Source: Apostichopus japonicus (Eukaryota > Echinodermata > Holothuroidea > Aspidochirotida > Stichopodidae). Taken from it: a stretch of DNA of 64,000 nt. Shown here one piece after another: positions 30,301-61,116 of the stretch. Location of the stretch: contig NC_092566.1 of assembly GCF_037975245.1 (NCBI RefSeq), forward strand, positions 1,116,001 to 1,180,000, read 5' to 3'. The notes beneath the pieces are model-generated. The model was not told where the DNA came from and ran no database searches. It saw only the letters and a list, made by a program, of their open reading frames with translations. The translations under genes and the position numbers were made by a program. Position 1 is the first letter of the stretch. Each line of letters starts with the position of its first letter.

Positions 30301-33300
30301 GATTTGCAACAGTAATGCATGTGTTCAGTATAAAATGAAAGAAGGTGACTGTCAAATGCAAAGGAAATATTTCGTATATCACTGAAAAAATGGTAAATGT
30401 GTGAAAATGTGAATAATGTAGTTTAACCAATTGTGATCATAATGTGAGACCCCAGCCGATACTCATAGCTAGTGTTACAGTTGGCACAGTAATTATCAAA
30501 AAGATGTGACACGTTGAACTAAGAGTCAGATAGGTGAAAATTTGCAGTAATTTAAAAATAAAATTTTTAGTATATTAAATTTTATAATTATTTATTTATT
30601 TTTTTAAATTTGCATTTACAAAAAACTTGCCACCTGTAACACATGTGTAACGAGCAGTTACAGTAGTAACTGATGCATGGTTGTGGAACATGAACAGTAG
30701 TAACTGTCCTAGCTATGAGTATCGGGTAACCCATTATTGGCTTCATTTTACTGCTTGTGTAGAATGCAATCTTTTATGTAATGTTTTGTGTAATGTGTTT
30801 TGTATTAACAGAAGCTGTACGGAGGAACTGCTCAATCGACTTCATCTGATATTCAGGCGGCGGTGGTTAGATTTCTGAAGGATGCATCTGATTGTGAGGG
30901 AGGGCGAAAATCTCGGACTTCACCACAAATAGTTGACGAGTGAATTTCTTTAGTGCTGTTGCAATATTTAACGCTGGAACTCATTTTCTCGCTTTGTAAT
31001 TTATAGGCGTAATAAAATGATAGCAACTAATTTCACTGTGTTAGTCATTATTTCTTCATATGTAACCGCATGTGTAATTCAGTAAAATCTGCAGGTAGAC
31101 CAATAGCTCTGTTCTAGTAGTACACCCCAAACAAGCTGGCACTCTTGCTAGCATTCCCTTGACAATGTGCTGGGACAAAACCCGATATTTGACGGACAGT
31201 TTTCTACCGGAACACAGATATTTGGTTAGCAATTCATGTGAATATCTCTGCCTAGCGGGTTGCTGGCGAAATACCAGATTTGGGCTAGCAGGTCGCCAGA
31301 ACACTGGATATTAGCTAGTGGATAGCCAGTGGCTCTCTCTGACAGAAATTCAGCGGTACTCCGGTGGTAAGCTTGCGTTTCTCCGGCGGTCTGCTGGTAG
31401 TACACCGGCGGAAAACTGGCGTTTCTTCGGCGGTCTGCTGGTGGAACACTGACGGTACACCAGCGGTACGCTGGCGTTTCTTTGGCGGTCTACTGGTGGA
31501 ACACCGGCGGTACGCTGGAGTTTCTTCGGCGGTCTGCCGGTGGAACACTGGCGGTACACCGGCGGAACGCTGGCGTTTCTTCGGCGGTACGCTGGCGTTT
31601 CTCTGGCGGTCTACTGGTGGATCACTGGCGGTACACCGGCGGTACGCCGGCGTTTCTTCGGCGGTCTGCTTGTGAAACACTGGCGGTACGTCGGCGGTAC
31701 GCTGGCGTTTCTCCGGCGGTCTTCTGGCGTAGTCGCCGGCGGACCGCCGGATTAAAGCCGGCCAAATCTCTGGCGTTCCGCCGGCTTTCCCCGCCGGTGG
31801 ACCGCCAGTGGTGCAGCTGGCGGGCCGCCGGTGGACCGCTAGCATGATGTTATCTGGGTACCCATCCACACCTACTCACCCTATCTACAGGTCACGATTC
31901 TTGCTGGTATGGAATCAAATTGGACCTAATATTGTCAGAGCTGAAGCTGTAAGGATAAACACTACCAATTTAAACTTTTGGCAGTTTATGAAGACCTAGG
32001 TCAGAAGGATCAGTTTCCATATTATAATGATTTCTAAACTTCAGCCAGTAGCTATAAGCACAGAATAAAACTAGACCCATCCAGATGACCTAGTACACAT
32101 CTATCAATAAATGGTAGTTTGCAGATAGTTTACTTTATCATGGTGAGGTACAGTACATGCTTTTCTAATGTTTTTTAACCACTTATAGCAGATATGTCTA
32201 GAGTAAACTTTCAGACCAACATAAAAATTTGCTGTCTGAACTTTGATTACAAACAGTCACAGATAACATTACTAACCTTTCATGCATGAAATGATGTGCC
32301 TAATTTTTTTTCTCTTGTTGACCAAATTTGCTGCTTATTATTTACAAGTGTTTATTTTTGGTCCAACCTCAAATATATTTTACACAATACTTTAATACAC
32401 ACGTAACGTAATACTTCATATGTATACAGGGAATACCTTGCATATATTATATCAATGGACTGTTTACAATATTTGATTATTATATATATATATACCTGTA
32501 TCATATGTTTTCTCTGAAAGATTGTAAAATTACATTGTGATAGTTTTATTCCATCAATATTTTTTGTAACATGAGAAAGGCAGGAGTTCTTTGTCTCTAA
32601 GGGCATTCTTCAAACTTGGATTTATTCCTACCAGTATACATATTCGTTTCAGAAATTTGGAAATATATATATATATATTTATATATATATATATATATAC
32701 ATATACTGCCGAATTCAGTATGTACCTGCGCAAGCCTTGCCAGTTTTAAAACATCGCTGAAAACATATGATTTTAGAATTGCCTTTGATGTTTGAATTGT
32801 ACAGTATCTTTGTTTCACCATAGCTTTAATGTATTTTTCTATCCTGTTATAGGTTTTATGGTGAATACCATTTAGGCGATATTTTTCTTCTATTTGCTTT
32901 TGAATTTGAATAAAAAAGCAATTGACAAACAAAATTGGATGTTTGAAAGTAATGAAAAACATATTTTTGATGTTCAGACTGCTGATTCAGATATTCAGAC
33001 GCTAAACAATGAAAGAATATAGTATTAAGTAATCAAGATTTAGAATGGCTTTGTTTGTCACCAAGTCCTGCCATAATAAATTACTTTTGAATAGACAAAT
33101 ATCCTGTTTGATAAATTACTGACGTAAATCACACCTTGGACTTGCCATTGAATTTGCATTTGTAGTATTGTTAAACAGTTCCATTGGGGGAGAGTCTGTT
33201 GATCATGGAAAATAAGCCTCAATGACGGGAAAAGGGTTAATTCAACAATTTCCTGAACTGCTGTAAGATATTGACGGAGAGAACGTAAATTTGATCTTGT

Positions 33301-51253: not shown

Positions 51254-52536
51254 TTAATCTGCTTCCGGATGTGGAACTCTCTTTAGATGTCTATTTAAAT
51301 GGGATTTACGAATAAAAGATTTGGTACAAAGTTTGCACTTGAAAGGTCTCTCTCCCGTGTGTGACCTCTCGTGAATCTTCCGAGCACTCTCATATGCGCA
51401 TAGTCTTGGGCAATATGAACATTTGTGAGAATGCGCAACCCTATGGTACTCAATGTGTGACCAAAGGCGTTGTTTTGTTGCAAACGAACTTGGGCAGAAA
51501 CAGCATGTATGTTTATTCTTCAGCTGACTTTCCTTAGGAGTGTTCTGACTGATGGAAGATGATTTAGTTTTGTCAGCTGTTAGACTTGGCATTTTGTCTT
51601 TCTCTGAATTGGACGACAGAGTCGAGTCAAGCAACTCTGCCGTATCTGTGCCAGATGAGGCGCTACTGCCACTAGCAGATCTACCACTGGTTTCCGTAGC
51701 AACAGCTGAGCTTGGGACAGTAAGATTGTCACAAACAGTTGACGTCTCATTTCTGGAAGTACTAGCCAGTTGTCTAGCGTGTACCTTTGTTTTGTGGTAC
51801 CTTGCATCTCTCGCCATAGAGAAAGCTTTATCGCAGATCCGACAATTAAACGGCTTCTCACCAGTATGAGTTCTCTCATGCTTGATCCAATCTCTCTTTA
51901 CGGAAAGTAATTTCCCACAAAAAGAACACCTATATTTCTTCTTCTTTGCACTGCTCTTCTGCTTCCCCTTCCTCCTGTTTGTAGTATGTACCTTTGTGTG
52001 ATTCAGAAAGCTACCTCTTGTCTTGAATGTGCTATGACATAAACGACACCAAAATTTATCCTGTTTTACCTCCGCCCTGTGCGATCTCTCATGCTTCTGT
52101 AGATCATTGTAGCATTTGTACACTCTATCGCAATAACCACAATTGTGCTTCGTTTTAGCGTGCATCTGCGGACAACTGACGAGATTTTGATTTTGATCAC
52201 TATGACCCAGAGGTTTCTGTGAGGAATCGCCGTGGTTCATCTTCGCAGCAAGATCTATGCTGTGTGTTCGTTCATGGTCTGCCAGGAGATCTTCATCAAC
52301 AAAATTCTCAACACACTGCTGACATGGAAAGGGCTTTCTAGTGGGCAAAGTGTCCTCTGCGTTTGGACACTCCTTCTTGTTAGCATTCTCTCTTTGTACT
52401 GCCAGTGTCTTTCGGGATTTACCCGTTGGCCTTCCTCTTGTTATGTTCTTCTGAAAGCTACTGCTGACACCCATACTATCTTTTGCTAATTTCTCTGGCA
52501 TGGATTTTAATGCTCCTTGTGGTGTTGAATCAGTAT
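51254..52536 (-). CDS. NPL-zinc-finger terminal exon 6 (AT-hook and eight fingers)
   Basis: It starts after the acceptor CTTCCAAAG and runs open to the stop at 51254-51256. Each finger keeps C-X2-C...H-X3-5-H. Finger 5 has H-X4-H, finger 8 H-X5-H, and finger 7 has Cys at the usual Phe position. Fingers 1-5 and 6-8 are separated by a ~90-residue Ser/Thr-rich spacer. The longer open frame beyond 52536 is intron pyrimidine tract. Confidence 0.93.
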
Positions 52537-55500
52537 CTTTGGAAGAAAAGAAGGAAAAACGTACTCTTATTATGTAAATATGATTAAAAGAGAAAAACAG
52601 AAAGTATTCCAATTATCAGAGCACCCTTAGGAAGGGGAGGATGTGGGGAGGGGGTGGGAAGGGGTAAGAGAAGGTCAAACAGTGGAATATCCTATCCCAT
52701 TAGCTGGCTGTTTCTGCAGGCTTTCCAACCGGAATTAGAACATCAATGATGTTATAGCCCAGTTGTCTTTTGCAACATGACCTGTTTAATCTGTTTCAAA
52801 CAAAGATAACATTTCAGTTTTATAGCCTGTTTGGTTAAGAAAACAAAGATTAGATTTTGGATAAGTTCTGCTTTGATCAGACATAACCTTGACTTCATTT
52901 CCCACTTTTCAAATATTTCAGATATGCTGGACTGCATGCATTTGGAGATGGCACAGTAAAAATGTCCTTAGACTTTTGGTCATGGAAAACTTTGTGTCAT
53001 TCAAGAGTGATACCTCCAGCCAAGAATACAAGAAGGGAGACCACCCTTGTCAGTGAGGCTGCAGGGAGAGGAGGTGGGGGAGGAGGGTACTTAGTTTGGA
53101 AAGCAATTAGGCTTACTGTACTATGCTGTAGTCGTAATTGCTAAAAGATCTGACTGTATGTAGGCTAAGGTCCTTCTGTTTTTCTCTATGTAACTGTGTT
53201 GCATGTTGATAGAGTCACGACTCTACTAACAGTGCTCAACTCCAATATTTTAGGAGTCACCAAAGTGTAGACAATTGATATGGATACGTAATATGAATGC
53301 ACTCTTCCATAAAAAGTATAAAAAAGTCACAAACGTACTACAAGATGTGCCCTTCATTACTACTACTGTAAATGGTTGATACTTTCTGAAGACTTTCTCT
53401 AGTCCAAAGATGAAAGTAGCTGGTGTTATTCCTCAACGAGTAAACAACTGAATAACAGCTCTGACTCTTAAATGCAAGGATGGCTAGGTTTGTAACAGCA
53501 GTGTGGTAGGTCTATGCTAACTGTGAATGTTTGCTCTGAAAATGAATGTTTGACTTTACACATCTGCGGTGAAATCTTAATATGATACACTGTATGATTA
53601 AGTCTGTTTGATGGCCAGATCAACTATGCAAAAATGCAAATAAAAGCAGCTGATTGTAACTATTGTTACCAAGCAAATAACTGACCTATAATGGGGGCTT
53701 TGTCACTGAAATTTTTGTCATCCTTGACTGTCGTTGAATCTGATTGGTTATCTGTGGAGTCAGCAAGATTACCATGACAACCACTGGATATTGTTGTTAA
53801 CAGCTGCAGTTCTGTCTCCAGAGGTTCAGACTTCGAGGTGTTGTGTTTTTCATCGGATGTTCTTCCATATTCTTGCTCTCCACTTTGCTCTTGGGTGATG
53901 AGTTTCAGAGGTTCCTTGTCCCCTCTTACACTTTCCAGCTCTCTCAGCCCTTTGGCCTTGGAAGACATCTCCTCTAAAGAATCGGCTCTGTTATCTTCAT
54001 CTTCTTTGTCTGAGCTATCTGCAGCTACACCAGTTGCCAAAGGTGAATTGACATCTGTAAATTCATTATCATTCATGGAAGGTTCCTCTGCACACCAACC
54101 GTCATCAGACTGCCATTGATACTGGGAAACCATGGGCGACATATCACCAATGTCACCAACTTGTGGTGCGGACGTGGTCTTGTCTTCATCACTAGACGCT
54201 AGTATCCACATTTTATCTTCGTCATTTGGGGGCAGGCTAGCAGTTGTCATTGACATCTGCAGATCTTCATCAGCGCCCAAGAGATCTCCGCCACTTACAT
54301 CCATCTGCTCCCTAGGGTTAGAATCTTTCTCAGTTACAGAGTTCTCCTCAGGTGGAATGAGAGGATCAAAATGCCCCTCGTTGTTCACCCTAGTACCAGA
54401 GCTATCCCATGAACCTTGCTTTAACCTAGTCACCTTCACTCTAGGAATGTTGACAGTCAGAATATTTCCATCGGATGATGAAACTCCTTGAGAGGTAGTC
54501 ACTGTTCTCTTTTTACCTACTTCATGGGTCTGTATGAAATTCTTGTAATATTCATTCCAGGAATTGTTGTTAGCATCTCCAGTCTGCTCATTCTTGACAG
54601 AGGTTACAGGTTGCTCTTTGAGTAGTTTGTTGTTCCCTTGTCTCTGAGAATCCTCTGCAGTGCTGTCATTATGACATATTGATGGACTTTCTGTAAAAGA
54701 CACAAAATTATTTCTCTCTGTTACTTATTAAAACCCAGGCATTCAAACTGGGCGACGTGCGGTGACGGTTACCAAAAATGTTTTGAAAGGTTGCCAAAAA
54801 CATGTACAAGAAAATAATAAACACTTTCATTCTTTGTAGAAAAAAGTGGACAAATCTTGGAACTCCCATAAAAAGTTGCAAAATATATACACTAAGCACC
54901 TAAAATTACGTAAACAAAATTCTCAGATGTGAAGGGGATACCGCTTTCCTGTAGACCCCTTCTCCAAAAGATAATTAAGGTTAAAAGTGTGGTCAACAAG
55001 CCAAAAAAGTTTGGATGCCAGGGACCTAAAGGGCCTACCAGATCATAACCAAAGTGAAATGGAGAATTTTCAAAACATTGGCTGCCTCACATTCTACCTT
55101 TTTCTTTGTGCCGCAGCTCAAAAACGGCAATTTTGCTTCGAAATAGCTGCAATTTAGAGGCAGTCACTCAATCTTTACAGAAGAGATAAGGTCTGTTCCT
55201 TACTCCACCCACCACAGTGGCACAAGGTGCTTACTCCACCACAGTAGCACGTAAAATCATCATTGGGTTCAAGCAATAATCTACCAAGGTTTTGCTAACA
55301 AAGCAACCCATAACATGTGTTCGGACACAACACTGTCTGTTCATCTTCTGGCTCTAAAATGTGTAAATGGTCAGTACCTCGCAGAAGAGCACATATTTCT
55401 CAGGTTAAGCCCCTGATTTCTTAGCTCTTTAAAAACTTGTGAGTAAGCAAGTTCAAACTTGCAAGTAAACAAGTTCAAACATATGTTTAGTCTCTTAAAA

Positions 55501-58500
55501 CACTATTATGTCGCTTCTCTTTTAGCAAAAAAAGATTTCACTGAAATTCTTCATATCCAGAGAATCAATGAAGTGAGATCAAGAAGAAATTGCTAACTTT
55601 TATATTAACATTAGTAAAAGAATAACACAAACAGATTGTTTTTAATGTTTTTAAACCAAATGAGAAATGCACAGAGAAAAATTTTTTCAAGTAAATAATC
55701 ACCTGAAGAACTTACCATGGTACGGTTGTGGGCTCTGAACCGTAGAATAACCAGTGATGTAAACAATTCCTGTAAAACACCAAGAGAGAAGAAAAAAACT
55801 TTACAAGTGAAAACCACCAACCAAACAAATTTCAAATATTTGTTATTGTACAGGACAATGGACTGAATGAAGGTCAAAGAAAATTTATGAAGTGCTTGTA
55901 AAACCATTTGTAACTTTTTTAAGTGCTTCTCTGAATATGAGGGCAGTATTGTGAAATAGTTGTAACTAACCGAAGTTTAAATAGTCAATCTGGCATGCAG
56001 GGTCACCTCACAGGATTCACTTGAACAAACACATTGGCTTATTTTTTTTTGTCATTTTGATACTGTGGAATATTGTTATACATTTCAAACAGATAATCAA
56101 AGTATTGGCCAAGTTTTGCATATATTAAGAGCTGATAAACCCATAGAGCAAAATCAGCAATTCTCTTCACAGAGGGCTTAAGAGGTGAGGTGAGTTGATG
56201 TGGTTGTCAGGGAAGGATATTTTGCACCGTTCCAATTTGCATTTAATGAATCTGGTGGGTTTTTTTTTCCATTTGGTAAATGGTCAATTTTAAGTGCACA
56301 CAGTATTCTTACTAAAGTTGCTATGTAGTAGCCCTGACATGTTATATTTGGGATAGACAAAGATGACTAGTAAAATTTTGGTTAATTAACTACCAGTCCT
56401 TACCAGTCAACCATTCTCTTCAATGCAGAAAAACATTTAACAGAATAATAAAAACAGGTTTTGAAGAGGTGAAATGCCTGGTCATTGGAGTGTCAATTTT
56501 TCTGAATATGTTACAATGCCTGAACTATTGAAACTGGTTGAACGGTAAATGCTGCTTTTCTTTTTACCTCCAAGTGCTGTTCTTTACACGATCATGCTAA
56601 CTACACAGAATATATCAGTGTACCTTTGAAGCTACTTCATAAATATCCCACAAATATATGGTCAAGAAACACATGATCGGGCCGAAGAGAACAAGGTACA
56701 ATGGATATCAAGTATAATTGATGTGTAATGATCTACCCTCTCATCCCGCGGGTACCCTACCCCCTACCCAACCCCAACTTTATTTTCTACGTCCACGATG
56801 AGTTCAGATGTGGCGTAGTACAGCCAGTGGAGTAGCCAGCATTCTATTGTTAGGGGGGCAAGATTTTTCATAAGGGGGGCAACCTTGTGATGGTTGATGG
56901 TAGGAATTACCAAGAAATATATGTATTAATGGGCACCTCGTCAGCACAAATACACATCCCATGGTTCCAAGGAACCCTATGTGGGTATGATGAAGGCCCA
57001 AAATGTGTAATATCTTGGAATGATTACCAAGTTCTGACCTTATATGAAGTATGAACATGAGCCCTGAGGTATGAATACTTGTGATTAGAACTCGAAAAAA
57101 GAAAAAAAAAGAAGTATTTTGAATACATCACTTGATTTCATTTGGGGGGGGGGGGCAAGACTGTAGCACAAAGCAAATTTGGGGGCAAACCCCCCTGGCC
57201 CCCCTCTGGCTACCACACTGGGTACAGCTAAACAGCAAAGTACTCACCTGTTCCTTCCACCATGAATGTCACTGCCTCGGTAAGCTGTAAGTCCAATTTC
57301 TGCTGAAGTACAGAACCTTTCTCCAAAGTACACAGTAAATGTTCTTCACCCTTGATTAGAACAATTAGACTGGCAGAGGGGTTTAATTCTCCTGCAGACA
57401 CAAACAACAGCAAACAATTACATTAGCATAAAAACAGATCAAATGATTAAACCTACAACAGCGACCAACAAAGGCAAAGCTCAAATTTAACGTGGAAAAA
57501 TCAAACCTGCACCAATGTACCTTTCTACTTGTAGTTTATGTTTTCAATATGAAAACCTTTTAACATAGAAACATATTGAACAACATATGATTTTCACTTC
57601 ATTTTCTCAAAGTTATTTTAATTTTTTCACAATTAAGCAGTCTTTATTTCAACTGTTAACCTACCTTATAGTGGTCTCCTGTAACACTTATAGCCAAAAC
57701 ATAAATCCTGCCATGTCATTTGGGAATCTGACTTGCTTTAATGCTGGATTCTGGCTAATTTGGCACAATTTGATGGTTAGAGAATATGTACCTTTAAAAT
57801 TTTGTGTCCCACAAATTGTTTGTAATGAATATCCTGATTAAAAATTTGCTAAGCAGGAGTAGCCACATAGGTACTAAAGTTAGACCATGGAGTTAGAAGA
57901 GACTCCATAGTTAAACTGAGGGGGTGTCCACTTATGCGAATTTTTCACAGCTTGGTCATAGTGAGACAATAAGACCCTTTGCAAAAATGCAGCTTAAATA
58001 TTTGCCTCATTCTGGGTTTATAGTAGAGGCTACATTTGGAATACTGCACATGCAGCATCCTTGGCAAGGTGAGCAATAGTAATGTCAGCTAAATGGACTC
58101 TTGGACTTCCAATCGGATGAGGAAAAAGATCTGGGAGTGTATGTGAATTGTTCGATGAAATTCAGCAGGCAATGCGCCGAAGCGACGAAAAAAGCCAATA
58201 AAGTGGTGGGCATTATTAAACTGAACTTCACTATTAAACTTTGATCGAAAAGTGTTATTGAATCTGTACAAGTCTCTTGTGAGGCCCCACCTGGACTACT
58301 GTATACCTGTATGGAAGCCATACTTGAAGAAAGACATTGGCTTATTGGAAGGTGTTCAGTGTAGAATGACAAAATTAATATCAGGCATGAGGGACAAATC
58401 CTATGGGGAAAGAATTAAAGCATTGGGCCTGATCAAGATAGAGCAACGTCATATTCGCCGGGATCTCATAACATTTTATAATATGACACAAGGAAAGTTA

Positions 58501-61116
58501 CCCATCAGTATAGAAAACCATGTGGAGTTTGTAAAGGACAGCAGAACCAGGGGAAATTCCAAGAAGATTCGACCGAAAAAGAGCGAGATTTGGAAGTTAG
58601 AAGAAATTCCTACTTTAACAGAATCTGGAAAACGTGGAACAAATTGCCAGAAGATATACAGTAGTTACAGCCCGAACACTGAACACATTCAAGAACGGAC
58701 TTAGGAAATGTGGGATCTTTAAGGGTCATTAAACCTCCTATCCCGAAAGCACCATTCTCTCAAGAGCCTTATCCGAGACGACACGAGAGGGTGGCCATCC
58801 AGGTTAATCCTTACCATTATTTTTCCTTTGTCTACAGTCTAAGGATGCCAGGGTAAGGTACTCTTCACAGTCCACCGTCTTAGTCCACACCTCTCCAGGC
58901 TTCAAAGTAATTCCTAGAAAACAAAAAAGGTTGAGAACTTACACCAAGGGCATAGGAACCGGGGGGGGGGGGCTGGAAAATAGTGAAAAATATGGAGGGG
59001 CGGAAGTATCATTCCGCCCCCCCCCCCCCCGCTTCGCAAGTCAGAAAACCCCTTTTTCATTTCCAAATGACAAAAAAATCTCATTTGGAGCACCAAATTG
59101 CATCTAAGGCCAGGTCAAAATGCAAAAGTTTTTACAAAATGGAGTGGGTGTTGAAGTGTGCTACATTGCACCACATTGCATCTGAGGCCACCTGGAAATG
59201 CCAAAAAATTCCAAAGGGGAGGGGGACACCCCCTCCCCTTAGACCCCTCCCCCAGGTCAGTCTTCAGCCCCCCACTCAAAAGTACCTTCCTACACCACTG
59301 ACTTACACAGCTATCTATCCTTCTATAAAAATGCTTGGTTTTGTCTCTCTGGCTATCTATCCTTCTATAAAAATGCTTGGTTTTGTCTCTCTGGCTTTCT
59401 TTTTGGTCAAACTATAGGCACAAAATTTATAAGTTTGATATACAGACCTTTAGAAAACCAGAGCTAATTAGTCAAGGTGGTAATAAAAGTGACTGGACTA
59501 TTAAGTCTAGAACACAGACAATTAGGTCAGTTCTGCATATAACACATGATTCAATGCCAGGGCAAACATCCCATTTTTACGGCCTCAGTTGACATGCAGT
59601 TTCTCAAGGACAAGTGGGGTTGAATATCATGCAAAGATGCTCTGTACTTAAAGGAATAACGAAGGCATTGATCAAAGACAATTTATATTATTCAGTAACC
59701 TCAAATCTTTCTTAATATTCTATTTTTAAAAGAAAAGTCCAGGTCAAAATTTCTTTTTAATATGTTAAAGGGGAACATAATCTAAGCATTCTGGTGAAAT
59801 TTGCATTCAATTCCTATGTACCGTTTTTGAGATATTGACAGTTGGAAGTTGCCACCTTTGGTACCAATGGTAAATTTGGAGCAAACAGGCATGACATCAT
59901 TGTTGCACACTGATAAATAATGTTTTTTTTTCCTTTAAAATTTACTTCTAATTATACTCCACAATCGGATGCATCTATAGTATGAATGTACTATAGGTAA
60001 TGGTATTTTATAATCTTCACATCCCCTTTAGACAAACTAGTAACCCTATCCAATCCAAGGTCAAATCAATAGACTGAAAAATATAGAAAAACAAAACATT
60101 TTTGGCAGTGTGCAACTATGACATTACACCGGTTTGCTTCAAGTTCACTTTTGGTAGTATATCAGATAACTTCAACTCAAGTGAACTGCTTCTTGTTTGA
60201 CTGAATACACTCGCTTTGAAAATTGGCTCCAAAGCCCTCACCACAGTACACAGTAAGACGGCATTGATTACGTGATATGCTTGAAATTCCATATTGATTT
60301 ATTTTGATATTGATTCATATTGATCCGATTTATGGAGAAAGTGCTACTGCCCGATTGAGTTGTTCCTCCCGTATGTCATCAATATGAAATTTTAAGCGTA
60401 TTATGTAATCAATGGCGGGTTACTATGTATTGTATTGTGGTTAGGTCTTAGGATCCAATACAATAAATTGTCTTTGATCCCTGCCTTTGTTATTCCTTTA
60501 ATATGAAGTAAACAGAACATGTTTTCTTTGAGTTATTATAATTTATAATAATGGATTGCCATTAATGTTTAGGCTTGCACAGAGTAACCGACGTCAATGT
60601 AGCTCTACAACAGCTTTCCAGACATGTTGCATATTTTAAAGGTGAATATTTTGAAGACCAGAATAGCTATAGAAACTTAGTAGCACTCGTTTCTTTAATT
60701 GTTTTCATTTGATTTTGACATATCAATACAAACATTGTGCCTTTAAAGAAATAGAAATAGGAAAGTTGCATATTATAACTTTGCCAATGTGGGTGGAGTA
60801 TGATATAACATGCAAATTATGACAATGGTAACAAAAAATGAAAGGAACCTGTTTGAAGCTGCCCATGGCAACACCAGCAAAAGCATGTGACATTATCAGT
60901 CAATTAACAGTCATGTTTCCTTCCTAAGCTGGGTTATAAAAACAAAGGATTATCCAATGTCCTCCAAACACCAAACTATTATTCTTACAGCTACTGTAGT
61001 AGGTAGTTATGCTACCAAGCTTGTCCCAAATAGGTCAAAAATGAAATATGCTCATGTGCATAATAATTGAGGGTCCGGTTGTTTACTTAAAGGAGCCCGT
61101 ACTTACCCCAAATCAT
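51254..61116 (-). CDS. Nucleoplasmin-like domain + AT-hook + eight C2H2 zinc fingers, six coding exons
   Basis: Exons from 5' to 3' on the - strand are 61116-61107, 58913-58815, 57391-57248, 55769-55716, 54690-53686 and 52536-51254: 2595 nt, 864 residues, all GT-AG and phase-consistent. Residues 1-94 look like an NPL domain: MIWG start, ITLKPGEVWTKTV, then LCTLEKG, VTFMVEGTG and VYITGYS, the pattern of the FKBP39/46 N-terminus and plant HD2 proteins (pentameric histone-binding fold). Residues 103-437 are a Ser/Asp/Glu-rich linker with an acidic stretch around 326-346 (SSDKEDEDNRADSLEE). An AT-hook-like TRGRPTGKSRK lies near 470-480. C2H2 fingers lie at about 507-529, 568-590, 599-621, 639-661, 667-690, 780-802, 808-830 and 836-860, with TGEKP/TGERP linkers before fingers 5 and 8. 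A nuclear, chromatin- or DNA-binding role is likely. The exact function is unknown to me. Confidence 0.82.
53686..54690 (-). CDS. NPL-zinc-finger exon 5 (acidic linker, residues 103-438)
   Basis: A 1005-nt exon after TCTTTTACAG, ending ATTATAG|GTCAGT. It is rich in Ser, Asp, Glu and Asn, looks disordered, and has several acidic clusters (SSDEDK, SSDKEDEDN). Acidic tracts after the core are usual in nucleoplasmin-type histone chaperones. Confidence 0.85.
55716..55769 (-). CDS. NPL-zinc-finger exon 4 (residues 85-103)
   Basis: A 54-nt exon between GTTTTACAG and CATG|GTAAG encoding IVYITGYSTVQSPQPYH, the last NPL strand. Confidence 0.83.
56824..57221. mobile_element. Miniature transposon (398 bp) with 6-bp target duplication
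   Basis: Ends CCAGTGGAGTAGCCAG and (inverted) CCAGTGTGGTAGCCAG. Direct repeats GTACAG lie at 56818-56823 and 57222-57227. The subterminal parts are rich in G runs. It lies 20 bp from the GTGAGT donor of exon 3 of the NPL-zinc-finger gene. Confidence 0.82.
57248..57391 (-). CDS. NPL-zinc-finger exon 3 (residues 37-85)
   Basis: Acceptor GTGTCTGCAG; donor ACAG|GTGAGT. It encodes LNPSASLIVLIKGEEHLLCT... and VTFMVEGTG, central strands of the NPL domain. Confidence 0.87.
58052..58715 (+). pseudogene. LINE reverse-transcriptase C-terminal fragment (CR1/L2-like)
   Basis: The + strand reads DLGVYVNCSMKFSRQC...ANKVVGIIKLNF, then after a TGA and a frame change near 58240, KSLVRPHLDYCIPVWKPYL, KDIGLLEGVQCRMTKLI and YGERIKALGL. 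These are hallmark words of the end of non-LTR retrotransposon RT domains (related to chicken-repeat-1 and L2 types). It is truncated and broken, antisense to the host gene, in intron 2. Confidence 0.85.
58815..58913 (-). CDS. NPL-zinc-finger exon 2 (residues 4-37)
   Basis: Acceptor TTTTCTAG; donor AATG|GTAAGG. It encodes ITLKPGEVWTKTVDCEEYLT... of the NPL domain. A miniature transposon ends 31 bp before the acceptor. Confidence 0.85.
58945..59300. mobile_element. hAT-like miniature transposon, copy B (356 bp)
   Basis: Same family as 27934-28239, in the opposite orientation (shared poly-G/poly-C core, CTTCGCAAGTCAGAAAACCCC, TCATTTGGAGCACCAAATTG). Perfect 8-bp direct repeats ACTTACAC lie at 58937-58944 and 59301-59308. 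It sits 31 bp upstream of the exon 2 acceptor of the NPL-zinc-finger gene. Confidence 0.92.
59310..59393. repeat. 42-bp tandem duplication
   Basis: Two exact copies of a 42-bp unit beginning GCTATCTATCCTTCTATAAA, at 59310 and 59352. Confidence 0.9.
59652..60497. mobile_element. TTAA-flanked inverted-repeat element (846 bp)
   Basis: The left end AGGAATAACGAAGGCA and right end (inverted) AGGAATAACAAAGGCA are flanked by TTAA at 59648-59651 and 60498-60501. Inverted similarity continues inward (ATCAAAGACAATTTAT; later GCAACAAT/TGACAT blocks near 59890 and 60110), so the element is semi-palindromic. TTAA targets are used by piggyBac and Kolobok transposases. No gene is inside. Lies in intron 1 of the NPL-zinc-finger gene. 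Confidence 0.82.
61107..61116 (-). CDS. NPL-zinc-finger exon 1 (residues 1-3 and part of 4)
   Basis: ATGATTTGGG then donor GTAAGT. It is the only nearby ATG whose phase joins exon 2, and it gives MIWGITLKPGE, matching the usual M-x-WG opening of NPL proteins. Confidence 0.75.

Follow-up and report, generated by a model that had tools for sequence, protein, structure and literature searches.

The question raised by this locus of the sea cucumber Apostichopus japonicus is whether a single animal gene joins an NPL domain, of the kind seen in FKBP39 and plant HD2 proteins, to an array of C2H2 zinc fingers, and, if it does, whether it stands alone. The locus lies in a window of 64,000 nucleotides (nt), the whole stretch of DNA analysed here (C6:1116001-1180000); coordinates are given either as window positions or with the contig labels (C1, C2 and so on) of the searched genome, which comprises 671,581,487 bases in 35 contigs. 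On the minus strand of the window, six exons proposed in a first-pass annotation do join in phase 1 through canonical splice sites, to give a predicted protein of 864 residues with the following parts; for the last two, the exon model was converted to positions manually.

Exon 1, 61107..61116, minus strand: start ATG ATT TGG G (MIWG), phase-1 donor gtaagt, in-frame stop codon 9 nt 5'.
Exon 2, 58815..58913, minus strand: N-terminal strands of the NPL domain; the NPL protein of a sister locus, used as a query, also matches here (C6:1174810-1174914, E 0.0256).
Exon 3, 57248..57391, minus strand: NPL core (LLCTLEKG..QQKLDL..VTFMVEGT).
Exon 4, 55716..55769, minus strand: last NPL strand (GIVYITGYS).
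Exon 5, 53686..54690, minus strand: acidic linker.
Exon 6, 51254..52536, minus strand: AT-hook-like core, eight C2H2 fingers and stop codon; acceptor in phase 1.
RGRP core, 52427..52438, minus strand: AT-hook-like motif, residues 471-474, by pattern only.
Eight-finger stretch, 51269..52324, minus strand: residues 509-860, by pattern and Pfam.

The joined frame of 2595 nt encodes 864 amino acids and a stop codon, with an in-frame TGA 9 nt before the ATG; in the exon model, built from the DNA, 5 of 5 introns are GT...AG and 5 of 5 are in phase 1. The marks MIWG, VTFMVEGTG and VYITGYS, by which the N-terminal domain had been recognised, all fall within the NPL exons, and Pfam and pattern searches agree on the proposed order of NPL domain, acidic linker, AT-hook-like core and eight fingers. 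The linker (residues 106-437) holds 64 D and E to 31 K and R, the protein has one AT-hook-like RGRP core (residue 471), and the C2H2 pattern matches stand at residues 509, 570, 601, 641, 669, 782, 810 and 838. The only Pfam models over cut-off are NPL and three C2H2 finger models (zf-C2H2_4, E 8.6e-17; zf-C2H2, E 3.7e-14; zf-H2C2_2, E 1.7e-12); no FKBP model matches the protein at E up to 1, and BTB is absent from its Pfam matches, NPL standing in BTB's place. On both strands of the window there is no other open reading frame (ORF) with two or more fingers, and the gene thus has a single finger exon.

The N-terminus is a predicted NPL domain of the FKBP39/HD2 type. Searched as residues 1-102, it matches Pfam NPL (PF17800) over residues 2-92 and profile positions 1-92 of 94, scoring 53.6 bits (E 3.8e-14) where the cut-off is 23.4, as the first-pass annotation had anticipated; the whole protein gives 48.5 bits (E 1.6e-12). 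Nucleoplasmin proper (PF03066) is rejected, reaching 14.6 bits against a cut-off of 25.8, in a protein that also carries fingers. The Pfam NPL model matches 13 of 13 modelled sequences at E up to 0.01 (the window gene, an FKBP gene and 11 sisters), and a profile of these 13 finds, among solved structures, FKBP39 as the best match (4ca9, E 8.4e-8), then FKBP43 (7wim, E 6.4e-7) and the plant proteins HDT1 (7vrr, E 3.9e-4), HDT2 (E 0.0027) and, only at E 0.12, HDT4. In the alignment, the central-pore Asp at the position of FKBP39 Asp62 is kept in 13 of 13 rows, and the position of FKBP39 His24 holds H in seven, Q in three, R in two and Y in one, the window protein; both residues are present in most NPLs (PMC4414354).

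The gene does not stand alone. Searching the genome with PF17800 yields 32 matches (E up to 1), of which 30 are over cut-off, one per locus, and a one-off fusion is rejected on this count. Around the 29 NPL loci besides the window, the stretches read extend mostly from about 1.2 kb before the NPL exon to about 6.5 kb behind it: a same-strand ORF with two or more fingers occurs in 11 of the 29, and in 0 of the 29 in the antisense control. Searches by coordinate add fingers at eight more (L015 at C11:9547799, L021 at C1:21409008, L022 at C4:28764703, L027 at C1:1131072, and the four row loci described below), so that a downstream same-strand C2H2 exon is found at 20 of the 30 loci, window included, where the near-identical pairs L014/L015 and L020/L021 are counted as four. 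These two pairs, together with L030/L031 and L018/L032, perhaps reflect duplication that is recent or due to assembly; each member counts as one of the 30. One further NPL locus (C2:2871739) has a downstream FKBP exon at C2:2877480, and at nine of the 30 (L013, L017, L018, L019, L029, L030, L031, L032 and L037) neither a finger nor an FKBP exon was found in the stretches read. NPL genes of the single type have 2 to 11 fingers per ORF by pattern; finger counts are lower bounds, as the whole-genome PF00096 search scored 150 of 2618 candidates. An AT-hook-like core recurs in just 2 of the 29 other stretches (L026, L028), and the motif is rejected as a mark of the family. In a tree of NPL exon 3 (about 50 residues, weak support), the NPL of the C11 row lies near the window gene and those of the C1 rows lie apart. 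The occurrence of NPL and fingers within one gene, recurring across the genome, is well supported, and the evidence places the window gene in an expanded NPL-zinc-finger family, of which 20 loci with fingers were found.

Two observations stand beside this count. At C11:6185633-6185719 and C11:9435129-9435215, both on the minus strand, two stretches of 29 residues match NPL exon 2 (62% identity, E 0.0133); they lie outside the 30 loci and are possibly further NPL genes or remnants. The near-identical NPL exons of L018 (C20:3184927) and L032 (C4:28695314) have a downstream open frame in common, and no finger exon was found in the stretches read at either.

The members also share an exon plan. 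NPL exons cut at matching places were picked at 28 of the 29 loci for exon 3, at 12 for exon 2 and at 13 for exon 4, by a script that demanded phase 1 (their phase is thus by construction), worked over short search ranges and for a few exons stopped at the wrong donor; in the NPL-FKBP gene L009, the same phase-1 search finds NPL exons 2-4 cut at places matching those of the finger genes. Phase was not imposed on the acceptors of finger exons; under a simple score, the top acceptor is a phase-1 site for all 13 finger ORFs at 12 NPL loci (the window and 11 others). Among the matches listed, the closest in the genome to the window finger exon is at C14:1034022 (L016; E 3.4e-13, 27% identity), itself an NPL locus. 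The exon 5-6 junction is therefore credible: the phase-1 acceptor of the finger exon recurs, the same-strand pairing recurs, and the best match of the finger exon is to an NPL locus. A symmetrical phase-1 module is the kind of unit that can be moved by exon shuffling, and the family may have arisen from an NPL-FKBP gene through shuffling of its phase-1 NPL module.

At four sister loci the NPL exon is followed by a whole row of finger exons, found by finger searches on the strand of the NPL exon:

Row behind C11:3458244, minus strand: at least 22 exons, 3448441 to 3382901.
Row behind C1:6902114, plus strand: at least 14 exons, 6921964 to 6968299.
Row behind C1:7122834, plus strand: at least 14 exons, 7149600 to 7183626.
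Row behind C1:7258557, minus strand: at least 12 exons, 7238967 to 7198576.

The exons were counted by eye, and the counts, at least 62 in total, are lower bounds; three of the matches span a stop codon. No opposite-strand finger match falls inside the four intervals among the matches listed, and none of the 55 matches of a second NPL search (E up to 10) places an NPL exon there. In the 35 row exons read (13 of 22 in the C11 row, 5 of 14 behind C1:6902114, 9 of 14 behind C1:7122834 and 8 of 12 behind C1:7258557), each of the 35 ORFs is closed by a stop codon after its last finger; the best acceptor is in phase 1 in 34 of the 35, which, being duplicates of one another, do not amount to 35 independent trials. 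The row exons read fit the same splice phase, and one head could thus join many alternative DNA-reading tails. In the stretches L052 and L038, similarity between the units begins 16-98 nt ahead of the acceptor and ends at a point between shortly before the stop codon and about 50 nt past it (L038 also holds an unrelated tandem repeat), and in the C11 row, 14 of 22 exons listed (counting the query) share 73-100% identity across their fingers. Such a pattern would be expected from tandem duplication of an alternative 3' terminal exon. Between C1:7122834 and 7259455, two NPL heads with their rows face each other, like a locus copied and inverted. The window gene has no such row, rows of this type occurring only at the sister loci.

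The fingers of the C11 row are maintained as protein. For nine tandem exons of this row, the ratio of nonsynonymous to synonymous change (pN/pS) falls to 0.03 at the zinc ligands and core residues, reaches 0.65 at the four usual DNA-contact positions (numbered -1, 2, 3 and 6) and has a value of 0.30 elsewhere; the value at the structural positions implies constraint. At the contacts, pN is 0.218 against 0.165 at the other positions and pS is 0.333 against 0.547, so that the raised ratio is due in part to low pS. The mean pairwise amino-acid difference is 0.419 at contacts and 0.292 at the others, which is not significant (permutation p 0.083); faster change at the DNA-contact positions is a trend only.

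These features suggest how members of the family may work. In the DNA, phase-1 exons 1-4 encode the NPL domain, a linker, acidic in the window gene, comes next, and a terminal phase-1 exon carries the fingers; at the row loci, one NPL head could be joined to alternative finger tails. The NPL domains of FKBP39, Fpr4 and Arabidopsis HD2 are pentamers, HD2 forming a dimer of pentamers, and that of FKBP39 binds histones, weakly in vitro (PMC4414354); a later paper reports the FKBP39 NPL as a tetramer (PMC5225439). The head may likewise oligomerise, as a pentamer or tetramer, and bind histones with the assistance of the acidic linker, the fingers directing the complex to particular sites in the genome; different tails or genes could then contribute to one mixed oligomer, and the window gene, with its single eight-finger tail, would be a fixed-address member. 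The forty fingers per complex of the first-pass annotation would hold for a pentamer (PMC4414354), whereas a tetramer would give 32 (PMC5225439), and for the window protein either state is presumed from its relatives; the multivalent DNA-binding histone chaperone proposed in that annotation is likewise a possible role. The most likely function of the family is thus that of oligomeric, sequence-addressed histone-binding factors. With fairly good confidence, we read the whole as an expanded NPL-zinc-finger family of oligomeric, histone-binding, finger-addressed proteins, in which the row heads can be joined to many tails and the window gene has a fixed address. That the four row loci are lola-like, with one oligomerising, histone-binding head spliced to any of 12-22 tails (at least 62 tail exons), mixed oligomers, and the window gene as fixed-tail member, we consider likely on balance.

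Several points weigh against this reading, besides the duplicate nature of the row exons, the part played by low pS and the lack of significance at the contacts. Splice junctions throughout are predicted from DNA alone, and the row exons read are 35 of the 62 counted. One exon, in L053, has its best acceptor in phase 2 (score 8.3, with a phase-1 runner-up at 7.0), and the first ORFs of L053 and L054 (2 of the 35) are truncated where the stretch begins, which makes their acceptors uncertain. In L052 the gaps between two units also have one stretch of about 230 nt in common. The distance from the NPL exon to the first row exon, partly read, is about 10 kb in the C11 row and up to about 27 kb in C1 row B. 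By itself, the window NPL has weak matches among PDB chains (7wim, E 0.0067; 4ca9, E 0.42), and it has Tyr where FKBP39 has His24. In an alternative reading, each finger exon of a row is a small zinc-finger gene of its own with short 5' exons, the nearest alone joining the NPL domain, and the row is an ordinary tandem cluster next to an NPL gene. A C2H2 cluster does exist on a contig without an NPL match (C17:1.38-1.78 Mb), Met stands between acceptor and first finger in 18 of the 35 row exons (and is absent in 17), and the distances from NPL exon to row, up to about 27 kb, also speak for it. However, the gaps from stop codon to next acceptor in the 12 neighbouring pairs read range from 98 to 1796 nt, and the shortest two, 98 and 159 nt, leave scant space for a promoter and 5' exons (the other ten are 636-1796 nt); the best acceptor is in phase 1 in all row exons read save one, four of four rows lie downstream of an NPL head and on its strand, and the similarity between units extends mainly over exon and acceptor. 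Separate genes in the rows are on this evidence unlikely.

For the window itself, the NPL exons and the finger exon could be two neighbouring genes, their fusion being a modelling error that junctions predicted from DNA would allow; against this stand the canonical in-phase junctions, the pairing of NPL and fingers at 20 of the 30 loci, and the strand bias (11 of 29 sense, 0 of 29 antisense), by which chance joining of two genes is rejected, and we regard such an error as highly improbable. A different alternative leaves the anatomy of the joined NPL-finger genes intact and concerns their use: the family might consist of genome-defence repressors, with fingers tracking transposons as in KRAB-zinc-finger proteins, in place of lola-like developmental regulators. 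The expansion to 20 finger loci and the trend to more change at the contact positions would fit such a role, but that trend is not significant and the data at hand do not separate repression from activation; we hold it as a tentative possibility.

In the KRAB, ZAD and BTB zinc-finger families, finger arrays have expanded within particular lineages behind a single constant N-terminal module; the NPL family resembles them in this respect and differs in the module. In Drosophila, lola gives about 20 isoforms that have an N-terminal BTB region in common and a protein able to bind itself; its many alternative C-terminal exons are each unique, and zinc fingers are encoded by most of them (PMC1947980). 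The four sister loci are like lola in showing a common head and a row of same-strand, same-phase terminal finger exons; they are unlike it in having NPL in place of BTB, and in that splicing is shown in the fly and the layout here is known from genomic DNA. The window gene, with its one finger exon, differs from lola in this as well. The plant HD-tuins (HD2/HDT) share with the window protein an N-terminal NPL, a charged linker and a C-terminal C2H2 part, but have one finger to its eight, and no rows of alternative finger exons are described for them in the accessible portion of PMC4414354. The NPL-FKBP isomerases (Drosophila FKBP39, yeast Fpr4) have the same type of NPL, followed by a prolyl isomerase domain where the window protein has fingers.

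As of 2015, the NPL domain had been described in proteins of three designs: by itself, joined to FKBP, or joined to a single finger of the plant type (PMC4414354). An animal NPL-finger protein is not described in the accessible portions of the literature surveyed, which lay mostly outside subscription journals and included no animal protein database; the pertinent papers there concern plant HD2 and HDAC proteins and FKBP39, an oyster paper has an NPL match and zinc-finger matches as separate genes (PMC12551290), and a preprint on the Holothuria glaberrima genome counts 167 C2H2 genes and does not mention nucleoplasmin in its main text (PMC13228809). An animal family of NPL with finger arrays would be a fourth arrangement, and would couple a histone-chaperone fold directly with the recognition of specific DNA sequences. 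If true, the alternative-tail rows would be a further origin of the lola strategy, built upon another oligomerising fold, and would allow a test of whether BTB is required for it at all.

Three minor features complete the picture. The C17 cluster (1.38-1.78 Mb) is large and same-strand, with long finger ORFs, and some of its parts look duplicated (for example at 1413 kb and 1473 kb). In the window, an open frame of 186 residues at 31315-31875 (minus strand) contains imperfect internal repeats and has no Pfam match over cut-off. Within intron 2 of the gene, at 58225-58704 (plus strand), lies an open frame of 159 residues with no Pfam match at E up to 0.1, which we take to resemble the tail of a reverse-transcriptase element.

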